From a virus: a stretch of DNA of 28,716 nucleotides. This document shows positions 3,588 to 24,120 of this stretch, piece after piece. A model generated the notes under the pieces. It was not told the DNA's origin. It saw only the letters and a program-made list of their open reading frames with translations, and made no database searches. Numbering within the stretch: position 1 is the first letter of the stretch; every line of letters begins with the position of its first letter. A program made the position numbers and the translations under genes. The stretch spans positions 1 to 28,716 of the IMG/VR virus record IMGVR_UViG_3300030103_005395. The stretch is one strand, 5' to 3'.

Positions 3588-5439
3588 TTTTATTTATAAT
3601 GATAGCGATTGGGTATGTCCTAGTGAATATCCAGACCTAAGACATGCTAAAGAAATCGCAATAGATTTAGAAACAAAAGATCCAAATATCAAAACTAAAG
3701 GTGCAGGTTGGGCAACATTTGATGGAGCTATTGTTGGTTTTGCTGTAGCAGCTCTAGATCAACAATGGTATTTTCCTATTCAACATGATGCAGGAGGCAA
3801 TATGGATTTAGGTATCACAACTGCCTGGATGCAAGATATTTTAAAAACCCCAGCTACAAAAATATTTCATAATGCAAGTTATGATGTCGGTTGGTTGCTT
3901 GTAAATGGTTTTGAGATAAGAGGTAAGATTGTAGATACAATGATTGCTGCAGCGTTAATAAATGAAAATAGATATAGTTTTAGTTTAAACGCATGTGCAA
4001 AAGATTACCTAGGAGAAATTAAGAATGAAACATTTTTAAATGAAAAGGCCAAAGAATGGGGAATTGACCCTAAAGCTGACCTCTGGAGACTGCCTGCAGG
4101 TTACGTAGGATTCTATGCTGAACAAGATGCAGGTCTTACCCTTAAGTTATGGCAAAGATTTAAAACAGAAATATCGAAACAAAGTTTGAATGATGTTTGG
4201 GACATGGAGATGGAGCTCCTACCTATATTGATTGAAACTAGGAGAAGAGGAATTAGAGTTGATGAAGAGAAAGCTGCAAAATTAAAAAAAGAATTTAAAG
4301 AGAAAGAGTTTCAAGTTTTAAAAAAGATAAAAGAAAAGACTACAATTAAACCTGACATATGGGCTGCAAGATCTGTCGCTCAGGTATTTGATAGAATAGG
4401 TGTAGATTACCCAAGGACACCGAAAACTGGAGAACCAAGCTTTACGCAAAATTGGTTAGTAAATTGTAATAACCCGATAGCGCAACTAATAAGAGAAGCA
4501 AGAGAAATAAATAAATTCCATTCAACATTTATTGACTCAATTCAAAGGTTTGTACACAAAGGTAGAATACATTCAGAGATAAACCAATTAAGATCTGACC
4601 AAGGTGGAACTGTATCTGGACGTTTGTCATATTCTAATCCTAACCTACAACAAATTCCTGCTAGAAACAAAGAGTTTGGAGATAAAATAAGAAGTTTATT
4701 TTTACCTGAAGAAGGAAAACAGTGGGGGAGTTTTGATTACAGCCAACAGGAGCCAAGGTTAGTTGCTCACTATGCTGCTAGTGTAAATGAAGATTTTAGT
4801 GGTGCAGATGAATTTATCGAAGCTTACAAGAATGAAGCTGCTGACTTCCACCAAATAGTAGCTGATATGGCAGGTATATCAAGAACTCAGGCCAAGACGA
4901 TCAATTTGGGTCTTTTTTATGGCATGGGTAAGGCAAAGCTTTCTAAAGAATTAGGAATATCAAAAGACGCTGCTGAAAATTTATTAGGTAAATACCATAC
5001 AAGAGTACCATTTGTTAAGAGATTGGCTGAGGCAGTGACCAACAGTGCCTCAAAATATGGCTTTATTAGGACAATAAGGGGTCGTAAATGCCGATTCGAC
5101 ATGTGGGAGCCTGCTACCTTCGGAATGAACAAAGCAATGCAATACGAGGAGGCTAAGGCGATTTATGGAAATAATATTAGAAGAGCCTTTACTTATAAAG
5201 CCCTCAACAGGCTTATCCAAGGATCTGCAGCTGATCAAACAAAACAAGCAATGATAGATTGTTATAAGGCAGGATATGAACCATTATTACAAATTCATGA
5301 TGAGTTATGTTTTTCTATAAATAGTGAGAAAGATATTGCTGGAGTAAAAAATATTATGGAGTCTGCAATAGAAAATTTAAAAGTACCTTTCAAAGTAGAT
5401 GTAGCTCTAGGTAGAAGCTGGGGTGAAGCAAAAGAATAA
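3571..5439 (+). CDS. polA: Family A DNA polymerase with 3'-5' exonuclease domain
   Basis: This 622-aa replicative polymerase has an N-terminal DnaQ-like proofreading domain: Exo I IAIDLET (D32, E34), Exo II FHNASYD (N101, D105), Exo III YAEQD (Y182, D186). The polymerase domain has motif A FDYSQQEPR (about 386-394), motif B R438-x3-K442-x3-L446-x3-Y450, and motif C HDE (576-578). The 5'-3' exonuclease of cellular Pol I is absent, as in T7-like phages. Residue 446 aligns with E. coli Phe762 and is leucine; in marine viral PolA surveys this residue varies among F, Y and L and is discussed in relation to replication speed and lifestyle. It follows the primase-helicase operon and is followed after two bases by a carbamoyltransferase gene. 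No clear ribosome binding site precedes ATG 3571, so coupling to the overlapping lipoprotein gene is likely. Confidence 0.96.
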   Translation: MTHQLNFIYNDSDWVCPSEYPDLRHAKEIAIDLETKDPNIKTKGAGWATFDGAIVGFAVAALDQQWYFPIQHDAGGNMDLGITTAWMQDILKTPATKIFHNASYDVGWLLVNGFEIRGKIVDTMIAAALINENRYSFSLNACAKDYLGEIKNETFLNEKAKEWGIDPKADLWRLPAGYVGFYAEQDAGLTLKLWQRFKTEISKQSLNDVWDMEMELLPILIETRRRGIRVDEEKAAKLKKEFKEKEFQVLKKIKEKTTIKPDIWAARSVAQVFDRIGVDYPRTPKTGEPSFTQNWLVNCNNPIAQLIREAREINKFHSTFIDSIQRFVHKGRIHSEINQLRSDQGGTVSGRLSYSNPNLQQIPARNKEFGDKIRSLFLPEEGKQWGSFDYSQQEPRLVAHYAASVNEDFSGADEFIEAYKNEAADFHQIVADMAGISRTQAKTINLGLFYGMGKAKLSKELGISKDAAENLLGKYHTRVPFVKRLAEAVTNSASKYGFIRTIRGRKCRFDMWEPATFGMNKAMQYEEAKAIYGNNIRRAFTYKALNRLIQGSAADQTKQAMIDCYKAGYEPLLQIHDELCFSINSEKDIAGVKNIMESAIENLKVPFKVDVALGRSWGEAKE

Positions 5440-5441
5440 TA

Positions 5442-6938
5442 ATGAAATTTCTTGGTCTAAGGTTATGTGAGCACGACTCAAACATAACTTACTCGGATGG
5501 AGTGCAAGTAAAATATTTTAAATATGAAAGACACAATCAAATAAAACATTTTGGATTAAACAATCTTACTGATTGGGTAGATACTCAAAAAATATTAAAT
5601 TTTAAACTTGAAGAACTAGACGCAATAGCAATTGTTATTGATGTATTTAGGTATCCAGATATTAAAAAAGAAGATCCCGAAAAACTATTTGAAAAAATAA
5701 ACATACCTTACGAACCTTTTACAAACTTAAAATGTCCTGTGTATAGATTAGACCACCACTATGCTCACAAACTTTCTAATTGGCCTCTCGTAGATTCTTC
5801 TGATGTTGATTTTGTTCTAGATGGCTTTGGAGATTTAAGGAGGAGCTGCAGTATATTTAGAAAACACAAGCTTGAAGAAGTTTATACCTTAGACACCATG
5901 CATTCTTTCGGTAAACAAATGGCTGCTATGGGTAGACATATGGGTATATCAGGAATCGCTGATGATGCAGTTGGTAAACTAATGGCTTTGAAACAATTTG
6001 GTAACTTTAATCCTGAGTATTTTACTCAGATTTCTAAGTTTGGTTTAAAAGATTCTAAATTAATTTTTGATTTTAAAAGATTTGTTGATGTTATAGGTAG
6101 TGACCTTGCTGCTAATTACAAGTTTTTAGATTATGTTAGAACTTTGCATGATTATATGGAAATAGCTTTTCCTAAATTTTTTAACGAACGTGCAGGTCGG
6201 AATGAAGTTGTGACTTATTCTGGAGGAGTTGCTCATAATGTATGTATTAATTCTAAAATTAAAAGAGATCTTCCTAATTTAATTATACCACCTCATTGTA
6301 ACGATGAAGGATTGTCACTAGGATGTGTTGAGTTTTTAAGAATACATTGCAATCAACCTAGGTTTGACAAGACTGGTTTTCCATACTGGCAAACGGACAC
6401 AGGACCACGGACAGAGCCATCGAGTGAAACAATCAAGAAGACTGCTGAAGGTCTAGCGCAGGGTAAAATAATAGGTTGGTATCAAGGTCATGGCGAAATA
6501 GGACCTAGAGCTCTTGGCAATAGATCTATCTTGATGAGCCCCGAAGTGAAGAATGGTAAGTCCATATTAAATAGCAAAGTAAAACACAGAGAAGATTACA
6601 GGCCTTTTGCTGCTTCAATTCTTTATGATGATGTGCAAGATTATTTTGAATGGGAAGGTGAAAGTAATTTTATGAAATACAGCGTAAGCTTTAAGGATTC
6701 TATTTTTGAACCAATATCTCACATTGATAACACAAGTAGAATACAGACAGTTAGTCATGAACTTAAAATATTTCATGAATTGATTTATCAATTTAAGAAG
6801 TTAACTGGCTTACCAATGCTTCTGAATACTTCATTGAATGATAATGGAAAACCAATTGCAGGTAAACCAGCAGATGCATTATCCCTTTTGAATAATTCTC
6901 AAATGGATTCTTTAGTTGTAGGTGACGAAGTATTTTGA
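5442..6938 (+). CDS. NodU/TobZ-type O-carbamoyltransferase (first copy)
   Basis: The 498-aa protein has the two-domain form of the NodU/CmcH/TobZ family, which moves a carbamoyl group from carbamoyl phosphate via carbamoyl-AMP to a hydroxyl group. The N-terminal Kae1-like domain shows the metal-binding DHHYAH (residues 104-109), a VLDGFGD segment and SGGVAHN (260-266). The C-terminal YrdC-like domain shows GPRALGNRS (around 354-362), KHREDYRPFAAS, TVSHE and LLNTSLNDNG. All expected motifs are present, so it should be active. It lies two bases after polA on the same strand and is probably cotranscribed. The acceptor is unknown; sugars of surface polysaccharides or a modified base in phage DNA are possibilities. 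No hydroxymethylase or other base-modification gene is visible nearby. Confidence 0.9.
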   Translation: MKFLGLRLCEHDSNITYSDGVQVKYFKYERHNQIKHFGLNNLTDWVDTQKILNFKLEELDAIAIVIDVFRYPDIKKEDPEKLFEKINIPYEPFTNLKCPVYRLDHHYAHKLSNWPLVDSSDVDFVLDGFGDLRRSCSIFRKHKLEEVYTLDTMHSFGKQMAAMGRHMGISGIADDAVGKLMALKQFGNFNPEYFTQISKFGLKDSKLIFDFKRFVDVIGSDLAANYKFLDYVRTLHDYMEIAFPKFFNERAGRNEVVTYSGGVAHNVCINSKIKRDLPNLIIPPHCNDEGLSLGCVEFLRIHCNQPRFDKTGFPYWQTDTGPRTEPSSETIKKTAEGLAQGKIIGWYQGHGEIGPRALGNRSILMSPEVKNGKSILNSKVKHREDYRPFAASILYDDVQDYFEWEGESNFMKYSVSFKDSIFEPISHIDNTSRIQTVSHELKIFHELIYQFKKLTGLPMLLNTSLNDNGKPIAGKPADALSLLNNSQMDSLVVGDEVF

Positions 6939-7054
6939 GTTGCTTCAATCTCCTCTATTGTCATATCTTTTAGCTTTGGATTATAATTATAAAATTTTAT
7001 TTTATAACCTTTCTCCTTTAACTCTTTTAGTCTTTGTGGGTTCCAATAAAACAT
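6899..7054 (-). CDS. Small hypothetical protein (51 aa) antisense to the end of the first carbamoyltransferase
   Basis: On the minus strand an ATG at 7054 is preceded by AAAGGAGAGAGC, a strong Shine-Dalgarno sequence at good spacing, and further up by TATAAT. The protein begins MFYWNPQRLKELKEKGYKIK and continues with a lysine-rich helix, then a polar tail NTSSPTTKES. It is not similar to anything I recognise. Its last 40 bases overlap the last 40 bases of the plus-strand carbamoyltransferase gene. It is the most downstream gene of the minus-strand block, after the second carbamoyltransferase. The ribosome binding site and promoter make it more credible than its length suggests. Confidence 0.55.
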   Translation of the reverse strand: MFYWNPQRLKELKEKGYKIKFYNYNPKLKDMTIEEIEATQNTSSPTTKESI

Positions 7055-7079
7055 GCTCTCTCCTTTTTTGTTTTTACCT

Positions 7080-7085
7080 ATTATA
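7080..7085 (-). promoter_or_regulatory. Candidate -10 box for the 51-aa minus-strand gene
   Basis: The minus strand reads GGTATAATAGG here, a perfect TATAAT. The start codon at 7054 lies about 25 bases downstream, leaving room for a short leader with the AAAGGAGAG site. No good -35 hexamer sits 17 bases upstream; the region is A-rich instead. Confidence 0.4.
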
Positions 7086-7148
7086 CCATGGACGTTTTTT
7101 TAATTTTTTATTTTATTGAATAGTAGACGACTGCCTGTTGCGGGGGTT

Positions 7149-8510
7149 TTATTCTGGATGCGACACTGAATGCTTTTTGACTAATTTTTTTATTTCTGGA
7201 AAATAAATAAAATTAAGTGAACTTTGTTCAAATAACTTTTTTAAATCATAAAGAGTTTCAACTAAGACTTCACCTGGTAAATTTAAACTTGTGTTAATCA
7301 ATAAAGGAACTTTTGTTATTTTGTAAAAAGACTTAATTAATTCATGGTACAATGGATTATCTTTATCAGACACAGTTTGTAATCTTGATTTATTATCAAT
7401 TGATATACCTGCTTCTAATTTTTTGTCATTCTTAATTTCATAGACATACATCATGTGTGGAGAATTATCAGAAATATCAAACCAATCAGTGCTTTGTTCT
7501 TCTAAAATAGAACATGCAAAAGGTCTAAACCATTCTCTTTTTTTTATTTTGTTTAGTTTATAATTAGCTTTCTTATCCATTGGATTCATAAGCAATGATC
7601 TATTACCTAATCCTCTTTGACCTTGCTCACTTCTTGACTGAAAAATAGCTACAGGTTCTTTTACTAAAATCTCAGCCACGTCAGTGCTTTGAACATCTTC
7701 GACAGTATGATTAGAAAATATTTCCAAATCTAAACTTTGAGGTATGCCAAGATATATTTTATTGTTTCTAATGAAATTATTACAATACAGGTTAGCAGCT
7801 CCTAGGCTTATACCAAAATCACCATTGAAAGGATCACAAAATAATTTATTAAATTTTGTTTTTAATTTTGTATTGTACAAAACATTCTGAGCACATCCTC
7901 CTGTAAAAGTTAAATTTTGTTTTATGTTAAATCTGTGTATTAAATTATTCATCTTAGTCTCAAATCTATTTTGAACATTTCTTGGCAGCTCATGATGTAA
8001 ACTCCAGGCCATTGTCTTCCCACAATCAAAAGAACTTTCAAATTGTTCTGCTGTAAATAATTCATAGTCCATGCCTATGTTGTTTGATTCTGTTATTACA
8101 TGTTGTAAGTTTTTATCAAACAAGTAATAGCTTTCCTGCTCTCTACCATTTTGATAGTCTGCACCATTTCCATCACAAACTAAAATATTTTGATTGGAGC
8201 TCCAGGTTAAAGAACAATAAGCATGTAATAAATGATGATATTTATTACCATAATAAACTAAAGGTATGTTTTTTAATTTTTTAGAATTTTTAAATAAATT
8301 AATCCAAAGAGGTGTGCAATGATCAGTTAGATGACTAATGATTATTGTATCTATTTGTAACTTTTCTAACTCTGTAATTATTTCTTTTGTAGGAAAAGAA
8401 AAATGTTTAAATTTATTGTAACGATCTATTTGTGTATGAAAAATAATTTTATTATCTTCAACATAAGTTATGCTGCCATCATGTGAAGTATAAATAGATA
8501 AAATATTCAT
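7149..8510 (-). CDS. NodU-like carbamoyltransferase (second, divergent copy)
   Basis: This 453-aa protein belongs to the same family as the plus-strand copy but is clearly different. N-terminal domain: SHDGSI near the start, KYHHLLHAY (the HHxxHA metal site), VCDGNGAD, and TGGCAQN. C-terminal domain: GQRGLGNRSLLMNP, KKREWFRPFACS, LQTVS and LLINTSLNLPGE. The usual 'PRALGNRS' is changed to 'QRGLGNRS'. It is about 45 residues shorter than the first copy. It is transcribed from the minus strand and converges with the first copy. No Shine-Dalgarno sequence is visible before the ATG, and an intrinsic terminator lies just upstream, so it must have its own weak promoter or depend on read-through. The acceptor is unknown. 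Confidence 0.87.
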   Translation of the reverse strand: MNILSIYTSHDGSITYVEDNKIIFHTQIDRYNKFKHFSFPTKEIITELEKLQIDTIIISHLTDHCTPLWINLFKNSKKLKNIPLVYYGNKYHHLLHAYCSLTWSSNQNILVCDGNGADYQNGREQESYYLFDKNLQHVITESNNIGMDYELFTAEQFESSFDCGKTMAWSLHHELPRNVQNRFETKMNNLIHRFNIKQNLTFTGGCAQNVLYNTKLKTKFNKLFCDPFNGDFGISLGAANLYCNNFIRNNKIYLGIPQSLDLEIFSNHTVEDVQSTDVAEILVKEPVAIFQSRSEQGQRGLGNRSLLMNPMDKKANYKLNKIKKREWFRPFACSILEEQSTDWFDISDNSPHMMYVYEIKNDKKLEAGISIDNKSRLQTVSDKDNPLYHELIKSFYKITKVPLLINTSLNLPGEVLVETLYDLKKLFEQSSLNFIYFPEIKKLVKKHSVSHPE

Positions 8511-8551
8511 GCAGGTTAATTTAGAGACATAAGTAGCCTACAAAATATATG

Positions 8552-8581
8552 AAAAAAATAAAAAAGCTAGGTTAACTAGCT
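8552..8581 (-). terminator. Intrinsic terminator, minus strand
   Basis: Read on the minus strand, the stem AGCTAG-TTAAC-CTAGCT (6 bp, 5-base loop) is followed directly by TTTTTTATTTTTTTC. The TAA stop of the 62-aa gene lies in the loop. It would end the transcript of the small minus-strand genes before the second carbamoyltransferase gene. Confidence 0.7.
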
Positions 8582-8760
8582 ATATCAAAAAGACCTTTTT
8601 GTGCGTCTTCAACACTTTGATCATTAATCTTTGTTCTTAGATTTTTGATCTTGATATCGATCCACTTCATATCAGGTGTTACTCTGCCCTGAGTTAATGC
8701 CTGCGTTGCCCACTTGGACTCCAACTGAAGTTTCTCCGATATTAACTTTTGTAGTTGCAT
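8572..8760 (-). CDS. Small hypothetical protein (62 aa), overlapping its upstream neighbour by 89 bases
   Basis: I choose ATG 8760 because GAGGAGG lies nine bases upstream; a TTG six codons earlier is a weaker choice. The protein starts MQLQKLISEKLQLESKWATQ and contains VTPDMKWIDIKIKNLRTKIN, a helical, coiled-coil-like layout. The gene lies inside the 3' end of the 92-aa gene in a different frame, and its stop codon is in the terminator loop. No family is recognised. The strong ribosome binding site is the best evidence. Confidence 0.55.
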   Translation of the reverse strand: MQLQKLISEKLQLESKWATQALTQGRVTPDMKWIDIKIKNLRTKINDQSVEDAQKGLFDIAS

Positions 8761-8950
8761 CTCGGTCGACCTCCTCAAAGGTTAGAAATAAGATATCTGG
8801 ATTATGAAATCCAGGACCTTCACTTCCTGTTATAACTCCTGAGTCAACCTTTGTTGATAAATCCTCAAGAGCAGCTTTATCGTTCTTTGCCTCAAGCGTC
8901 TCATCAATATATATATTTTTATAGTTTACTTGGACGCGATATAGCTTCAT
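8672..8950 (-). CDS. Small hypothetical protein (92 aa)
   Basis: The protein begins MKLYRVQVNYKNIYIDETLE and looks like a small alternating beta/alpha protein up to about residue 65 (ILFLTFEEVDRDATTK). The final 25 residues (GETSVGVQVGNAG...) are glycine/serine-rich and read through the next gene. No Shine-Dalgarno sequence precedes the ATG, but a TTGCAT-18-TATAAT promoter ends five bases before it, so the message may be leaderless. Function unknown. The overlap with the 62-aa gene means that one of the two could have been mis-called, though both have start signals. Confidence 0.5.
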   Translation of the reverse strand: MKLYRVQVNYKNIYIDETLEAKNDKAALEDLSTKVDSGVITGSEGPGFHNPDILFLTFEEVDRDATTKVNIGETSVGVQVGNAGINSGQSNT

Positions 8951-8955
8951 ACATC

Positions 8956-8985
8956 ATTATATAACAAAATGTGATATAAATGCAA
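8956..8985 (-). promoter_or_regulatory. Sigma70-type promoter, minus strand (TTGCAT-18-TATAAT)
   Basis: On the minus strand TTGCAT (8985-8980) and a perfect TATAAT (8961-8956) are separated by 18 bases. The expected start of transcription falls on or next to the ATG at 8950, so a leaderless transcript of the 92-aa gene is predicted. Confidence 0.55.
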
Positions 8986-9216
8986 CTATGTGGAAGGTAG
9001 TTCTTTGCACTCAAATTTAATGGCTATTTTTTCCTTATTTATTCTCTCTAAGCCAATATAATCGTCATTTTTTAACAATTCAAAGGTTTGGCCAGATACT
9101 CGATAGCCTGCAATAGCACAATCATAATGGGTTGGATACATGTAAGAAGTGGTTTGGCTCTCAAAACACTTACCACTGAGTAAACTACAAATGTGTAAAA
9201 TTAATATGTATTTCAT
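8986..9216 (-). CDS. Small hypothetical protein with hydrophobic N-terminus (76 aa)
   Basis: The protein begins MKYILILHICSLLSGKCFES, a short hydrophobic stretch that may be a signal or anchor, followed by TSYMYPTHYDCAIAGY and a C-terminal KIAIKFECKELPST. The pattern of four to five cysteines with a final 'KFxCKE' recalls a family of small exported proteins seen in marine phages. This similarity is from memory and uncertain. It is the first gene of the minus-strand block, divergent from the plus-strand gene at 9321. No strong ribosome binding site is visible; a TATTAT box lies 14 bases upstream of the ATG. Confidence 0.6.
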   Translation of the reverse strand: MKYILILHICSLLSGKCFESQTTSYMYPTHYDCAIAGYRVSGQTFELLKNDDYIGLERINKEKIAIKFECKELPST

Positions 9217-9253
9217 CCTATATTTACCTATAATATCCCAACTTATTATTTAC

Positions 9254-9281
9254 TTGCATATCCCATTAAAATGATTATATG
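9254..9281 (+). promoter_or_regulatory. Candidate promoter TTGCAT-16-TATATG with ATCCCAT in the spacer
   Basis: TTGCAT (9254-9259) and TATATG (9276-9281) flank a 16-base spacer that begins ATCCCAT. The same ATCCCAT word occurs in the spacers of the promoters at 14666 and 14986. It lies in the divergent intergenic space before the plus-strand genes that run to the terminator at 11021. Confidence 0.5.
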
Positions 9282-9320
9282 TCAATTATGTTTTTTAAAT
9301 TAATTAACAAAGAGGTTATC

Positions 9321-9614
9321 ATGAAAAACAAAGAAGAGAAAGCTGCAATGACAGCTGCTGAAAAGCTTGGTGAAGCTTTGGTATTACACCCTGAATGGGA
9401 AGTTAAACCAAAGAGTGTTGCTATGACTCATGTCTTTTCAGTTACATTTAATGAGTCAACAAAAGAATTACATCTTGAGGTGAATGGTGAACATTACAGA
9501 ACTCTGAGATGTAAAGATATCCTAAGTGGAAAAATAAAATTTCACGAAGGTTTAAATGCAATGATTAGTAAATTTGATTTATGGAGGTTTGATGAGCCAA
9601 AGTCCAATAATTAA
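9321..9614 (+). CDS. Small hypothetical protein (97 aa)
   Basis: I take ATG 9321, preceded by AAGAGG five bases upstream, over an in-frame ATG 14 codons earlier. The protein starts MKNKEEKAAMTAAEKLGEAL with a charged helix; the middle HVFSVTFNESTKELHLEVNG looks like beta strands; the end is DLWRFDEPKSNN. No family is recognised. It follows the promoter at 9254 and overlaps the next gene by 23 bases. Expression together with the ParB-like gene downstream is likely. Confidence 0.6.
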   Translation: MKNKEEKAAMTAAEKLGEALVLHPEWEVKPKSVAMTHVFSVTFNESTKELHLEVNGEHYRTLRCKDILSGKIKFHEGLNAMISKFDLWRFDEPKSNN

Positions 9615-14085: not shown

Positions 14086-14484
14086 ATGACAGTAAAAGCA
14101 CAAGAATCTAGACTTTGGCAAAAGCTTAAAAACAACTTAACTAATTGTTATTTAACCCGCATAGAATCTAGCACAATTAATGGTATTCCTGATGTACACG
14201 CAGTTAATCAAGAGCATGTTTTCTGGATAGAACTTAAATCTGATGAAGCTAATTATCCTAAATTAAATAAGTGGCAAATCGTATGGATTAATAAATATAT
14301 TAAAGCTGGTGGTAAAGTAATTATTCTCAAAGAGACCCTCTCGAAGAGGTCTCTTAAACTGTACAGACCGGTGTCCAGTTTCACTGATCCTCGCTCGCTC
14401 GTGTCGTTTGCCTCGTTCTCGTTCCCGATACAATGGCCAACGGTCCAGCGTCTCCTGCTGGGATCCCTCCAGGAGGCAGCGTGA
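14086..14484 (+). CDS. VRR-NUC-type PD-(D/E)xK nuclease
   Basis: The active-site pattern is clear: INGIPDVHAV (D36) followed by FWIELKSDE (E49, K51), then KLNKWQIVWINKYIKAGGKV with the conserved glutamine helix. These features match small VRR-NUC nucleases of phages, which cut structured or branched DNA and resolve junctions before packaging. The last 45 residues come from a stretch with much higher G+C and many CTCGTT words, so the natural C-terminus may have been altered. A hairpin AAGAGACC...GGTCTCTT lies inside the coding region near 14332-14356. The position next to terS fits a packaging or recombination role. Confidence 0.8.
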   Translation: MTVKAQESRLWQKLKNNLTNCYLTRIESSTINGIPDVHAVNQEHVFWIELKSDEANYPKLNKWQIVWINKYIKAGGKVIILKETLSKRSLKLYRPVSSFTDPRSLVSFASFSFPIQWPTVQRLLLGSLQEAA

Positions 14485-14665
14485 TCTCGTTCTCGTTGTC
14501 AACTCTCGCTCGTCTCGTTTCAAAGACAGCATCAGGGCCCTTCCTGCAGACTGGCTCTGCGCCCCAGCAGCTCAGAGGATCTCGTGCTATGACCTGCCCC
14601 TCGTTTCTTTTTACTCTTTGTTAGTTTACGGGGGGCTGGTGATGGCACGGAAGGTAACTTCAGGT
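14485..14665 (+). other. G+C-rich stretch without a supported gene
   Basis: From about 14360 to 14660 the base composition shifts from the AT-rich background to clearly G+C-rich, with many CTCGTT words. Short open frames exist on both strands, but none has a ribosome binding site or a protein-like composition. I see no supported gene here. The promoter of the next cassette begins at 14666. Confidence 0.5.
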
Positions 14666-14694
14666 TTGACAATTATCCCATGATGTCGTATCGT
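14666..14694 (+). promoter_or_regulatory. Promoter TTGACA-17-TATCGT (cassette 1)
   Basis: Perfect -35 TTGACA (14666-14671), 17-base spacer containing ATCCCAT, and -10 TATCGT (14689-14694). The arrangement and much of the spacer are shared with the promoter at 14986 (ATCCCATnAnGTCnTAT). It lies 17 bases upstream of the next ATG, which has its own AAGGAG. Confidence 0.72.
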
Positions 14695-14711
14695 AAGGAA
14701 AAGGAGAAACA

Positions 14712-14930
14712 ATGACAGTAGATTTTGAAGCACTGGATCTCGTTCGAGGCGAGAACAAATCTCGTTTACACGACAGTAAGGTTGGGGAGCTAACTCGGCA
14801 GAACACTGAGCTCAGGCAGCTGGTGGCTGATGCCATAAAAATGGTAAAGGAATTTGAAAAAGATGATTACTGCGCTGGTAGTTGGAGCGTATATAGTGAT
14901 ATCTTGGAAAAGCGATTAGATAATATATAA
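14712..14930 (+). CDS. Small hypothetical protein (72 aa), cassette 1
   Basis: AAGGAG five bases upstream and the promoter at 14666 support this start. The protein reads MTVDFEALDLVRGENKSRLH, then a helical region GELTRQNTELRQLVADAIKM with coiled-coil character, and ends near SWSVYSDILEKRLDN. No family is recognised. It is the only gene between its promoter and the hairpin at 14933, so it forms a self-contained cassette. Its codons carry two CTCGTT words. Confidence 0.62.
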   Translation: MTVDFEALDLVRGENKSRLHDSKVGELTRQNTELRQLVADAIKMVKEFEKDDYCAGSWSVYSDILEKRLDNI

Positions 14931-14932
14931 TA

Positions 14933-14975
14933 CAGGTGCCTTGGTAAGGATACACGGACAACTTACCAAGGCCTG
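14933..14975 (+). terminator. Hairpin closing cassette 1
   Basis: CCTTGGTAAG (14939-14948) pairs perfectly with CTTACCAAGG (14962-14971); CAGG and CCTG extend the stem outside a two-base bulge. It starts two bases after the stop codon. There is no T-run, so it is either a weak or factor-assisted terminator or an RNA stabiliser. Confidence 0.55.
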
Positions 14976-14985
14976 AAAATTCTTC

Positions 14986-15014
14986 TTGACATATATCCCA
15001 TCACGTCTTATGTA
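14986..15014 (+). promoter_or_regulatory. Promoter TTGACA-17-TATGTA (cassette 2)
   Basis: TTGACA (14986-14991), 17-base spacer with ATCCCAT and CGTCTTAT, and -10 TATGTA (15009-15014). It resembles the promoter at 14666 closely. It begins ten bases after the hairpin of cassette 1. Confidence 0.7.
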
Positions 15015-15038
15015 ACCATCAACAAACAAAGGAGAACT

Positions 15039-15320
15039 ATGAACAAATATACTACGGCCCAGATACTAGCAGCTTGGGATGCTGCATATGGTGAAGACAT
15101 GATGGTGGAATACCCAGGCTTCTTTCAAAGACTAACAGAGGAGAATGCTTCGCAAGCCGGTGACCCCGGTAAAAGCACGGATAGAACCCAGACCGGAGCC
15201 CGTGCAGAGGAGGAAGGTCCTGTAGCAGGTAACACGTACGCATTGACTGGTGCACGCGGGACCAAATGCATTGCTAACGGTAACAGCTGGAAGGACTCGC
15301 TCGTTGAGGAGAACAACTGA
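15039..15320 (+). CDS. Small hypothetical protein (93 aa), cassette 2
   Basis: AAAGGAG lies four to five bases before the ATG. The first 35 residues (MNKYTTAQILAAWDAAYGED...) look like a normal folded protein with a helical start. The rest (ENASQAGDPGKSTDRTQTGA onward) is polar, glycine- and alanine-rich and probably unstructured, encoded by the G+C-rich DNA. No family is recognised. The TGA stop overlaps the ATG of a 22-codon frame, which may be coupled to it. Confidence 0.6.
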   Translation: MNKYTTAQILAAWDAAYGEDMMVEYPGFFQRLTEENASQAGDPGKSTDRTQTGARAEEEGPVAGNTYALTGARGTKCIANGNSWKDSLVEENN

Positions 15321-15388
15321 TGTTCTCGTTTGAACTACAGTTCGTACGGCAGCTCCTGCCAGGAAGGACTGGGGGCTGGGCAGCGTGA
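15320..15388 (+). CDS. Possible coupled micro-protein (22 aa), cassette 2
   Basis: The ATG overlaps the upstream stop (ATGA), and GAGGAG lies eight bases before it. The peptide is MFSFELQFVRQLLPGRTGG plus three residues. Its TGA stop overlaps a GTG start of the next tiny membrane gene. It may only serve to pass ribosomes on. Confidence 0.35.
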   Translation: MFSFELQFVRQLLPGRTGGWAA

Positions 15389-15486
15389 GCTTAATCACAT
15401 TGTACATTGTTTTGCTAATTCTTTACCCTGATGTAATGTGGGTGCTAACTGGTTTGCTTATTCTCGTAACAGTGAATGCCTTCTAA
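15385..15486 (+). CDS. Tiny two-span membrane protein (33 aa), cassette 2
   Basis: The GTG start overlaps the stop of the upstream frame (GTGA). The protein is strongly hydrophobic, MSLITLYIVLLILYPDVMW followed by a second helix ending VNAF, which fits an inner-membrane helical hairpin. The start codon assignment rests on the coupling and on GGGGG about ten bases upstream. It resembles in layout the 35-aa peptide at 9851. Function unknown. Confidence 0.45.
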   Translation: MSLITLYIVLLILYPDVMWVLTGLLILVTVNAF

Positions 15487-15502
15487 GAGCTCGTCTCGTT
15501 TA

Positions 15503-15529
15503 GAGCTGTGCCAGTTACCAGCACAGTTC
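15503..15529 (+). terminator. Hairpin after cassette 2
   Basis: GAGCTGTGC (15503-15511) pairs with GCACAGTTC (15521-15529) through 8 Watson-Crick pairs and one G-T, with a nine-base loop. It lies 17 bases after the tiny membrane gene. There is no T-run, as for the other cassette hairpins. Confidence 0.45.
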
Positions 15530-15577
15530 GTAATTGGCATCCCCCCAGCAGCAGAGAAATCTTGGGTGCGAAGCTAG

Positions 15578-15594
15578 TTTAGAATCATTCTAAA
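15578..15594 (+). promoter_or_regulatory. Perfect palindrome, possible operator
   Basis: TTTAGAATCATTCTAAA is a perfect 8+1+8 palindrome. It lies nine bases upstream of the -35 box of the promoter at 15604, a usual place for an activator or repressor site. Confidence 0.5.
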
Positions 15595-15603
15595 AAATAG
15601 TTG

Positions 15604-15632
15604 TTGCATTGGTAAGTGGGATTTGATAAGAC
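15604..15632 (+). promoter_or_regulatory. Promoter TTGCAT-17-TAAGAC (cassette 3)
   Basis: TTGCAT (15604-15609), 17-base spacer, TAAGAC (15627-15632) continuing as GAG. The same -35, spacing and ATAAGACGAG word recur at 16290, which makes a real promoter family likely although the -10 is far from TATAAT. Confidence 0.6.
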
Positions 15633-15661
15633 GAGTCTTAAACTTTAACAAAGGAGTAAAA

Positions 15662-16072
15662 ATGGGACTTGATATGTATGCCTATCGACACAAAGGCGAA
15701 AGGATAAACCACGAAACAGATAGAGAAAAGTTAGAAGGAACTGAAAGAGAGCCAATACAATTTGCCGATTGGCGAAAACACAATCGACTTCAAGGGTTCA
15801 TGCAAGAGATATATGACAAGCAGTCTGGATACCACGACATGCAAGGGTTCAACTGTGTACCACTTTACCTATCTCGTGAAGATTTAGACAGACTTGAAGA
15901 AGCCATAAGGTCACGAACTTTACCCGAAACAGCAGGGTTCTTCTTCGGTCAAGATAGCTACACATGGGAAGGTGAGCAGGAAGATTTAAAAGCGACCGAC
16001 TTAAAATTTGTCGCTGACGCAAAGAAATATCTTAACGAAGGATTCGAGGTGTTTTATGAGTGCTGGTGGTAA
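15662..16072 (+). CDS. 'MGLDMY' family phage protein (136 aa)
   Basis: ATG 15662 follows AAAGGAG with five bases of spacing. A TTG/ATT-type extension upstream would run through the promoter and is rejected. The protein begins MGLDMYAYRHKGER and contains FADWRKHNRLQGFMQEIYDK, FNCVPLYLSREDLDRLEEAI, PETAGFFFGQDSY and ends VFYECWW. This layout is typical of a small phage/bacterial family that is sometimes mislabelled phosphoglycerate kinase; its role is unknown. The gene overlaps the next one by 17 bases. It is the first gene of cassette 3. Confidence 0.82.
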   Translation: MGLDMYAYRHKGERINHETDREKLEGTEREPIQFADWRKHNRLQGFMQEIYDKQSGYHDMQGFNCVPLYLSREDLDRLEEAIRSRTLPETAGFFFGQDSYTWEGEQEDLKATDLKFVADAKKYLNEGFEVFYECWW

Positions 16073-16286
16073 GAAGGGTAATGTCGAGGCGACTAATGTC
16101 GCCTCGCTCGTTAAAGCGAAGCGAGAGCGCCTCGCTCGGAAAAGGCAAGAGGCAGCCACCCAGCAGATGATGGAATTTGTGCGAGGTCTTGAAAAATTTT
16201 TCGGAAAACCAAAATCAATACAACTAGAGGTAGAGCCAAATGTTATTAATATTACTGATAGACTTAATAAAAAAAGATTAAATTAA
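16056..16286 (+). CDS. Small basic hypothetical protein (76 aa)
   Basis: ATG 16056 has GAGG six bases upstream and lies within the last codons of the preceding gene. The protein starts MSAGGKKGNVEATNVASLVK and continues AKRERLARKRQEAATQQMME, a strongly charged helix. The middle of the coding sequence holds GAGGCGAC-TAAT-GTCGCCTC (16086-16105), a perfect 8-bp hairpin, followed by more CTCGCT/AGCGAG repeats. Its G+C is much higher than that of the second half, so the reading frame seems to be a mosaic. No family is recognised. Confidence 0.55.
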   Translation: MSAGGKKGNVEATNVASLVKAKRERLARKRQEAATQQMMEFVRGLEKFFGKPKSIQLEVEPNVINITDRLNKKRLN

Positions 16287-16289
16287 CTA

Positions 16290-16318
16290 TTGCATATATT
16301 AATGAGATGTAATAAGAC
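16290..16318 (+). promoter_or_regulatory. Promoter TTGCAT-17-TAAGAC (cassette 4)
   Basis: TTGCAT (16290-16295), 17-base spacer, TAAGAC (16313-16318) followed by GAG. It shares GnGATnTnATAAGACGAG with the promoter at 15604. The next ATG is 48 bases downstream. Confidence 0.6.
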
Positions 16319-16366
16319 GAGGTATCAATCATTAGATTGTGTAAATTAAACTAATAAAGAGGTCTT

Positions 16367-16693
16367 ATGACACAAGCACAAAAAAGACTAAAGCAAGATG
16401 AAAAAAAAGTAGTCTTGTCTTATGTCCAATTAAAGCTTAAAGCAAATAGACTAACAAAAGAGTTAGACACAATGAAACAAAACATTGTTGATTGCTTTGA
16501 GAGAACAAATCAAAACTTAATCATTGTTCAAGATGAACAAGGAAATAGTTTTGGATTACAAAAAATAAATCGTAAGCGAAAGAAATTTGAAACAGCAAAT
16601 TTCAAAATTGCTCATAATGATTTATATAATAAATTCACTACTGATATCGAGTATAGTGAATACAAAGCAATAGGAGATACAAATGCCCAATAA
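16367..16693 (+). CDS. Small basic hypothetical protein (108 aa)
   Basis: AAGAGG four bases before the ATG supports the start. The protein begins MTQAQKRLKQDEKKVVLSYV and has a long helix with KANRLTKELDTMKQNIVDCF, followed by a likely beta hairpin (LIIVQDEQGNSFGLQKI) and a basic NRKRKKFE. This resembles phage proteins with a coiled coil plus a small domain, but no family is named. It overlaps the next gene by 11 bases, and both belong to cassette 4. Confidence 0.65.
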   Translation: MTQAQKRLKQDEKKVVLSYVQLKLKANRLTKELDTMKQNIVDCFERTNQNLIIVQDEQGNSFGLQKINRKRKKFETANFKIAHNDLYNKFTTDIEYSEYKAIGDTNAQ

Positions 16694-16943
16694 TGATTTG
16701 ATGAATATTGCTCAAGTATTAGCTGAACGAGTGGGAAATAAAACACCTACACAATTAGCTGATATGGTTATCGACAATGGTCAGAAGAAACAACTCAACT
16801 ATGAGATTATGTTTCAACTGTTGATGGGCGAGTGTGAGAAACACATACTCGAGAATGTTGGCAACCCAATCGTTGACGAGTTTAAAGACAATGTACTAAA
16901 GAAATTTAGTACACTAGTACAAGCACTACATACACAAGAGTAA
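16683..16943 (+). CDS. Small hypothetical protein (86 aa)
   Basis: GGAG six bases before ATG 16683, and the overlap with the upstream gene, support the start. The protein reads MPNNDLMNIAQVLAERVGNK, then TPTQLADMVIDNGQKKQLNY and a helical end FSTLVQALHTQE. It is acidic and predicted all-helical. No family is recognised. It ends 11 bases before the hairpin at 16954. Confidence 0.65.
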   Translation: MPNNDLMNIAQVLAERVGNKTPTQLADMVIDNGQKKQLNYEIMFQLLMGECEKHILENVGNPIVDEFKDNVLKKFSTLVQALHTQE

Positions 16944-16953
16944 GTTATAACTA

Positions 16954-16979
16954 ACCAATGGCGCAATAGCGCCATTGGT
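16954..16979 (+). terminator. Strong 11-bp hairpin closing cassette 4
   Basis: ACCAATGGCGC (16954-16964) pairs perfectly with GCGCCATTGGT (16969-16979) around a four-base loop AATA. No T-run follows (GTATCTTGCC). It separates the island from the terminase gene. The 143 bases from here to 17122 hold no gene that I can support. Confidence 0.6.
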
Positions 16980-23683: not shown

Positions 23684-23813
23684 CGAAAAAGGTTTAAGTG
23701 GAGGAGTTAGATTTGGGCCACCGCCCAAAAAAGGACCAAATCCACAAGGAATCAAAAAAGTTAGGTCTAAAAATGCAAAAAAACTTGTACGAAAGCCTTC
23801 CAGAAAAACTTAA
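23670..23813 (+). CDS. Small basic protein downstream of portal (47 aa), TTG start
   Basis: In the frame that begins with TTG inside the last codons of portal, the protein reads MRRNNEKGLSGGVRFGPPPK, then KGPNPQGIKKVRS and a basic tail ending KPSRKT. The GGVRFGPPPKKGPNPQG segment is proline/glycine-rich and looks protein-like, unlike an accidental frame. The LAGLIDADG gene starts within its last third. It may be a virion or linker peptide. The endonuclease insertion may have replaced its original C-terminus. The start codon is uncertain. Confidence 0.48.
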   Translation: MRRNNEKGLSGGVRFGPPPKKGPNPQGIKKVRSKNAKKLVRKPSRKT

Positions 23814-24120
23814 AATAATTTTTTTGGCTGGTTTATTTGATGGAGAAGGAAGTTTTGGTGTTTGGGGTAAAGGTAGTGGCAGAAAATCGTTTCAATGTTC
23901 TGTTGAAATGTGTGACAAGGATATAATTCAAAGATTTGTAGATTTATTTGGTGGTTCAGTGTTACCAGTTAAGATTCGTAATGAAAAATGGAAACAAACA
24001 TGGAAATGGAAGATGTCAGGCAAGAGGGCTTTCACAACAATTGGAAAAATGATAGAATATATGTGTCAAAGAAGAAAGGACAAGTTCAATGTGGTTAAGT
24101 GCAATAAAATTAGCGGTTAG
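23773..24120 (+). CDS. LAGLIDADG homing endonuclease, single-motif form (115 aa)
   Basis: ATG 23773 gives a protein starting MQKNLYESLPEKLKIIFLAG. The motif LAGLFDGEG (residues 18-26, catalytic acid E25) is the LAGLIDADG helix. It is followed by strands SFQCSVEMCDKDIIQRFVDL, FGGSV and KWKQTWKWKMSGKRAFTTIG. With one motif it should work as a homodimer, cutting a site near its own gene to spread it. A longer frame from GTG 23698 is possible, but residues 1-25 would then be read out of the basic upstream gene. It overlaps genes on both sides. Confidence 0.85.
   Translation: MQKNLYESLPEKLKIIFLAGLFDGEGSFGVWGKGSGRKSFQCSVEMCDKDIIQRFVDLFGGSVLPVKIRNEKWKQTWKWKMSGKRAFTTIGKMIEYMCQRRKDKFNVVKCNKISG

Follow-up and report, generated by a model that had tools for sequence, protein, structure and literature searches.

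A covarying hairpin predicted to be antisense to the leaders of a small-gene block between the terminase genes of a pelagiphage-like virus

The c4 RNA of the phages P1 and P7 is a structured, phage-encoded antisense RNA that is located upstream of its targets and contains segments complementary to the region where ribosomes bind the message of a phage gene. It is referred to in PMC12197685, where the work of Citron and Schuster (1990) is cited. Here, we analyzed a stretch of 28,716 nucleotides (hereafter the window), which is part of the 30,531-base IMG/VR virus record IMGVR_UViG_3300030103_005395 and carries a block of small genes between the terminase genes terS and terL, with a hairpin just upstream of the first promoter of the block, P1. 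We consider it somewhat probable that these genes belong to one phage regulon with its own class of promoters, which would be silenced post-transcriptionally by an antisense hairpin RNA. The regulon would comprise at least five small units, namely g1; g2 with a tiny membrane-like peptide; a gene of the MGLDMY family with g4; g5 with g6; and a gene at position 9321, outside the block.

The terL gene of the window shares 72.6% DNA identity over 1.4 kb with that of Pelagibacter phage HTVC023P, and in a terL tree HTVC023P falls among the relatives of the window, while HTVC027P forms a long outside branch. Judged by terL, the window phage is a relative of the HTVC023P-type pelagiphages, and it is related to the most abundant known phages of SAR11. 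As the record is metagenomic, the host can be deduced from relatives only, and the terL match together with the terL tree indicates that it is probably SAR11. The comparison set consisted of 80 loci from IMG/VR that carry a related terL. The interval from the Hjc gene to terL is spanned in 53 of them, including the window, and 38 of these 53 phages carry the block while 15 are without it.

Two features are central to the proposed regulation:

14583 to 14649, + strand: covarying RNA hairpin (20 pairs, 23-nt loop at 14605 to 14627), missed in the first-pass annotation
14614 to 14627, + strand: loop segment CUCUUUGUUAGUUU, antisense to unit leaders according to duplex energies and controls

The hairpin has a folding energy of -37.4 kcal/mol (z -7.85). 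It recurs in 86 loci, and its position just after Hjc was checked in 21 of these. Its structure was assessed in an alignment of 32 sequences that had been aligned by sequence only. Compensatory changes were found in 10 of the 12 stem pairs, and 89% of the stem cells were paired, as compared to 71.5% upon shuffling and 56% or less when the partners were slid. Likewise, 54 double-change cells were counted, where shuffling gave 18 ± 3. The stems of relative L064 (CAGGGACACAGG...CCTGTGTCCCTG) and of the window (CCTGCCCCTCGT...ACGGGGGGCTGG) have hardly any sequence in common, and the loop is conserved while the stem covaries. The + strand folds better in 27 of the 32 sequences. A covariance model detected the hairpin in five relatives outside the set from which it was built, and it gave no match at E < 0.01 in relatives without the block (L038 scored 0.014). 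When the window and five relatives were compared with Rfam, no match was obtained at the gathering score.

The ribosome-binding leaders of g5, of the MGLDMY gene and of the fifth unit are complementary to the conserved loop, CUCUUUGUUAGUU:

15640 to 15661, + strand: leader of the MGLDMY gene with AACAAAGGAG, a predicted loop target by duplex energies
16345 to 16366, + strand: leader of g5, AAACTAATAAAGAGG, the strongest consistent predicted loop target by duplex energies
9254 to 9614, + strand: fifth unit outside the interval, with promoter TTGCATATCCCAT, leader TTAACAAAGAGG and a gene at 9321 to 9614

More specifically, the loop contains C(C/U)CUUUGUUAGUU or close variants, the reverse complement of which is AACUAACAAAG(A/G)G. 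Several unit leaders end with CUAACAAAG(A/G)G ahead of the start codon, and the hairpin loop shows the antisense of this sequence (CCUCUUUGUUAGUU). The respective leader words are AAACUAAUAAAGAGG before g5, AAACUUUAACAAAGGAG before the MGLDMY gene and UUAACAAAGAGG before the 9321 gene. In 21 genomes, the mean duplex energy predicted with the loop was -17.5 kcal/mol for the g5 leader and -15.0 kcal/mol for the MGLDMY leader. The other leaders, 207 in number, averaged only -7.3 kcal/mol, and shuffled loops gave about -7 kcal/mol. With -6.6 kcal/mol, the leader of terL is not a loop target. In 20 of the 21 genomes, none of 200 shuffled loops matched the fit of the native loop. Leaders outside the block that contain a Shine-Dalgarno sequence averaged only -8.8 kcal/mol, and g5 leaders in which the AAAGRG core was kept and the rest was shuffled reached only -9.9 kcal/mol; therefore, the match between loop and leaders goes beyond plain anti-Shine-Dalgarno complementarity. 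Furthermore, native pairs of loop and leader were better than swapped pairs for g5, with a p-value of 0.004 that is optimistic as the sequences are related. The 9321 gene has a promoter related to those of the block, its leader word was also found in relatives, and in four relatives the duplex of 9321-type leaders with the loop was predicted at -16 to -22 kcal/mol. This fifth unit is located far from the interval and had been overlooked in the first-pass annotation, and its leader is the same as that of the units in the block.

Structure, covariation, complementarity and conservation were computed, and from these we infer that the hairpin RNA would be produced and would act in trans as a repressor; its timing and the functions of the genes are likewise deduced. 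When present, the hairpin RNA would pair with the leaders via its loop, by which the Shine-Dalgarno sequences would be covered and translation of the units would be blocked together. Regarding the timing, a transcript from the packaging side could produce the hairpin later in infection and so shut down early small genes, which would be the simplest order of events given the position of the hairpin downstream of terS and a resolvase-like gene.

Several observations weigh against this antisense regulon. No separate promoter was identified for the hairpin RNA, and the co-evolution of the loop with the MGLDMY leader is weak (p 0.08, native versus swapped pairs), with kinship of the sequences making all such p-values optimistic. 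In the window, the g1 leader fits the loop poorly, and 5 of 80 unrelated Shine-Dalgarno leaders also attained -14.9 kcal/mol. When whole loci were scanned with a longer loop segment, other sites on the + strand sometimes outscored the leaders; as this segment included stem bases, the scan is less clear than the comparison restricted to leaders, and we did not rely on it. Lastly, an antisense hairpin leaves a repeat array in the same region, described below, without explanation.

The first-pass annotation had proposed four -35/-10 pairs in the block, all of which are present:

14666 to 14694, + strand: promoter P1, class A, TTGACA-17-TATCGT, with an ATCCCAT box in the spacer
14986 to 15014, + strand: promoter P2, class A, TTGACA-17-TATGTA
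15604 to 15632, + strand: promoter P3, class B, TTGCAT-17-TAAGAC, with an ATGGGAT-like box, TTTGATAAGA
16290 to 16318, + strand: promoter P4, class B, TTGCAT-17-TAAGAC, diverged in the window, where it deviates from the class-B consensus (ATGAGATGTAATAAGA)

A consensus scan listed only P1 of these four, and its total of 27 promoter-like sites is at chance level, as shuffled sequence gave 21.3 +/- 4.8. In 26 phages of the clade, however, the respective genes are again preceded by these promoters, and their order is retained. Class A, which reads TTGACAnnTATCCCATnnnnTCTTATG in relatives, is located upstream of the first unit or of the first two, and class B, TTGCA...ATGGGATTTGATAAGA, upstream of the MGLDMY gene and g5. 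With a strict pattern for class B, 34 copies were counted on the + strand of the interval, compared to none in 245 kb outside it. On the strength of this conservation upstream of the same genes, and not of the consensus scores, the four promoters are real, and the presence of conserved promoters for the individual units makes separate transcription starts likely. A host promoter element was ruled out, as the class-B core ATGGGATnnGATAAGA was found in 0 of 99 SAR11 genomes; by this count the element is specific to the phage. The units would start at related, phage-specific promoters that share the ATCCCAT or ATGGGAT box between -35 and -10. On the complementary strand, class A reads ATAAGA-N4-ATGGGA and class B reads ATGGGA-N4-ATAAGA, so that both can be regarded as a direct repeat ATRRGA-N4-ATRRGA running in opposite directions. 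This suggests a putative operator overlapping the promoter.

The small genes with strong ribosome-binding sites that had been predicted downstream of these promoters were also confirmed. Counts refer to the 38 block-bearing phages:

14712 to 14930, + strand: g1, 72 aa, a variable unit, in 10 of 38
15039 to 15320, + strand: g2, 93 aa, with the conserved core KPxxGxxYALTG...CIANG, in 32 of 38
15385 to 15486, + strand: 33-aa membrane-like peptide with a GTG start, read from the sequence
15662 to 16072, + strand: MGLDMY-family gene, 136 aa, in 35 of 38 by alignment
16056 to 16286, + strand: g4, 76 aa, overlapping the 3′ end of the MGLDMY gene, in 8 of 38 (tblastn, one query)
16367 to 16693, + strand: g5, 108 aa, in 38 of 38
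16683 to 16943, + strand: g6, 86 aa, in 38 of 38

The first-pass annotation regarded these genes as separately promoted, moron-like cassettes between terS and terL, each of which would be gained or lost alone. The conserved promoter before each unit agrees with this idea, as do the higher G+C content of the interval (44% vs 34%), the variability of g1 and of the MGLDMY version, and the occurrence of different genes at the same site in other relatives. Independent gain and loss of the units, however, was not borne out. Within the clade of block-bearing phages the interval is largely conserved gene for gene, an outcome that the first-pass annotation itself had named as a refutation, with g5 and g6 present in 38/38, the MGLDMY gene in 35/38 and g2 in 32/38, and what varies between intact flanks is mainly the entire block; only g1, g4 and the MGLDMY version vary singly. 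Fifteen relatives keep Hjc and terL but have none of the block genes, and mapping presence or absence of the block onto the terL tree requires 3 changes. In L048, which lacks the block, the same interval (4499-9262) holds ten different small leftward genes, an alternative module between terS and terL. Leader and promoter signals are, in addition, common to the units. As to the terminators that individual morons would carry, a scan of the + strand of the interval returned no intrinsic terminator. Of the hairpins noted earlier behind the units, the one at 14933 was found in a single tested relative (L016) with the pattern used, and that at 16954 in about half. The view of independent morons is thus improbable and, as originally stated, already largely refuted. 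The comparison supports a hot spot at which one coordinated module appears to be swapped; it does not support a row of independent cargo cassettes.

The MGLDMY proteins represent one family with diverged versions, which are 29-87% identical to the copy in the window. The structure model of this protein is good (pLDDT 85), yet the predicted model had no significant fold match in PDB, and its matches in BFVD were uncharacterised phage proteins only. A likeness to E. coli YfbM was considered and dismissed as weak and not significant. For g5, the structure model is poor, and neither MGLDMY nor g5 had a credible match in Pfam or among PDB sequences. None of the proteins of the block has a known function, and the roles suggested for the units beforehand, namely defence escape, host takeover or immunity, could not be attributed to any of them. 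The 33-aa peptide is located between g2 and a palindrome, and similar peptides can be read at this place in L005, L016 and L023 despite differing DNA. At about 7630-7960 in L023, a long, G+C-rich non-coding insert that looks structured separates promoter 2 from g2; it has no match in Rfam. Elsewhere in the window, two diverged genes that lie face to face (5442-6938 on the + strand and 7149-8510 on the - strand) resemble carbamoyltransferases by eye, and the open reading frame at 23698-24120, amid structural genes, contains LAGLFDGEGSF and, likewise by eye, resembles a LAGLIDADG homing endonuclease.

The palindrome had been correctly recognized in the first-pass annotation:

15578 to 15594, no strand assigned: palindrome TTTAGAA-N3-TTCTAAA, just upstream of P3, once per phage and in the same place

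It occupies this fixed spot before P3 in nearly all block-bearing relatives. Conceivably, it could place the MGLDMY unit under control of the host iron regulator Irr, as it resembles the Irr box or iron control element of alphaproteobacteria. SAR11 encodes Irr (PMC2864753), and infection with HTVC027P raises the expression of host irr and of iron uptake genes (PMC12753301). However, the exact palindrome was present in only 8 of 147 SAR11 genomes, which is below the reversed-pattern control, and a shorter form was also below its control; a host Irr regulon defined by this site was therefore rejected. Nor was the palindrome found in the fetched parts of HTVC023P and HTVC027P. The likeness to the Irr box lies in the sequence TTTAGAA-N3-TTCTAAA near a promoter, and the difference is that the SAR11 genomes show no matching regulon that would share the box. 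We regard a link of Irr to the MGLDMY unit as quite unlikely. Matches to the palindrome elsewhere in IMG/VR often fall inside coding sequence, for example in a polymerase-like gene, and look like chance. A role as genome end was dismissed as well, because whole contigs end nearby about as often as expected by chance. In L048, the same palindrome (6919-6935) precedes an unrelated leftward gene, which suggests reuse of the site for other cargo.

The hairpin and the first units are embedded in a repeat array, which the first-pass annotation did not mention:

14390 to 16136, + strand: strand-polar array of CTCGTT / CTCGCTCG, densest at 14390 to 14605 by word counts

In the loci L001-L073, both words are strongly enriched on one strand between the Hjc gene and g5, in a G+C-rich stretch. 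Over 25 phages, TCTCGTT was counted 141 times in forward and 2 times in reverse orientation, where about 2 were expected, and CGTTCTCG 78 times forward and 0 times reverse. Copies are often 5 or 6 bases apart and occur in intergenic DNA as well as in coding sequence of several frames. Among the compared relatives, the array occurs only together with the block. Since infected cells are ribosome-deprived (PMC11066056), the array was checked for complementarity to host rRNA, but SAR11 16S rRNA contains no complement of the most frequent 7-mers, with only AACGAGC occurring; this candidate was dropped. The array may act as a DNA site (pac, origin), as a Rho-loading region or as an RNA sponge.

If hairpin and array acted as DNA, they could be a terminase recognition (pac) site or a replication origin. 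The location between the terminase genes, the dense one-directional repeats with their spacing of 5 or 6 and the occurrence of the repeats in both coding and non-coding DNA would fit such a site. Against it speak the match of the loop to gene leaders beyond chance, G-U pairs retained in the stem that favour a + strand RNA, the ends of long contigs, which lie at varied distances from the array, and the fact that relatives without the array, including HTVC023P and HTVC027P, package their DNA anyway. This makes a DNA site rather doubtful. Alternatively, the C-rich array could load Rho and end the terS-Hjc transcript before P1, with the hairpin protecting or processing the new 3′ end. In line with this idea, the array is situated just ahead of promoter 1, and the + strand at 14380-14620 has a C fraction of 0.34 and a G fraction of 0.23, whereas G exceeds C across most of the window. 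CTCGT is also slightly more unpaired than GC-matched 5-mers (0.40 vs 0.33), a difference that is not decisive for an RNA held in loops. Rho loading would, however, leave the conserved loop and its match to the leaders unexplained, and such loading should not require a word as constrained as the exact CTCGTT; we consider it improbable.

Returning to the antisense regulon, a conserved hairpin with ties to a defined group of small genes would offer a first handle on their control. The hairpin would mark g5, g6, the MGLDMY gene and the 9321 gene as one functional set, and it represents an RNA family without a match in Rfam. The strand-polar repeats of CTCGTT, too, give a strong signal. As a tentative possibility, the system may be a new class of phage riboregulator in an ocean phage group that is abundant, in which one hairpin, with a loop that mirrors the common ribosome-binding leader, silences several separately promoted operons and the surrounding CUCGUU array serves as a second element of the same RNA, either a protein sponge or a processing signal.

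With the HTVC023P-type pelagiphages (PMC9599517, PMC12753301), the window phage shares terL and part of the layout between terS and terL; in contrast to the window, HTVC023P and HTVC027P are devoid of the block, the hairpin and the array. The block resembles morons in having small genes with their own promoters, a different base composition and a location in a variable interval, and it differs from them in being a single inherited block with common promoter and leader signals and no intrinsic terminators by scan. The c4 RNA of P1 and P7 would be the nearest precedent in function, although we do not claim membership of its family. The likeness consists of the upstream location and of an RNA segment that is complementary to the ribosome-binding region of its targets, a complementarity that is here computed. 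The two differ in that the present hairpin showed no match by sequence or to any Rfam family, which covers c4 provided that Rfam contains it, and in that a single loop here fits several units with promoters of their own.

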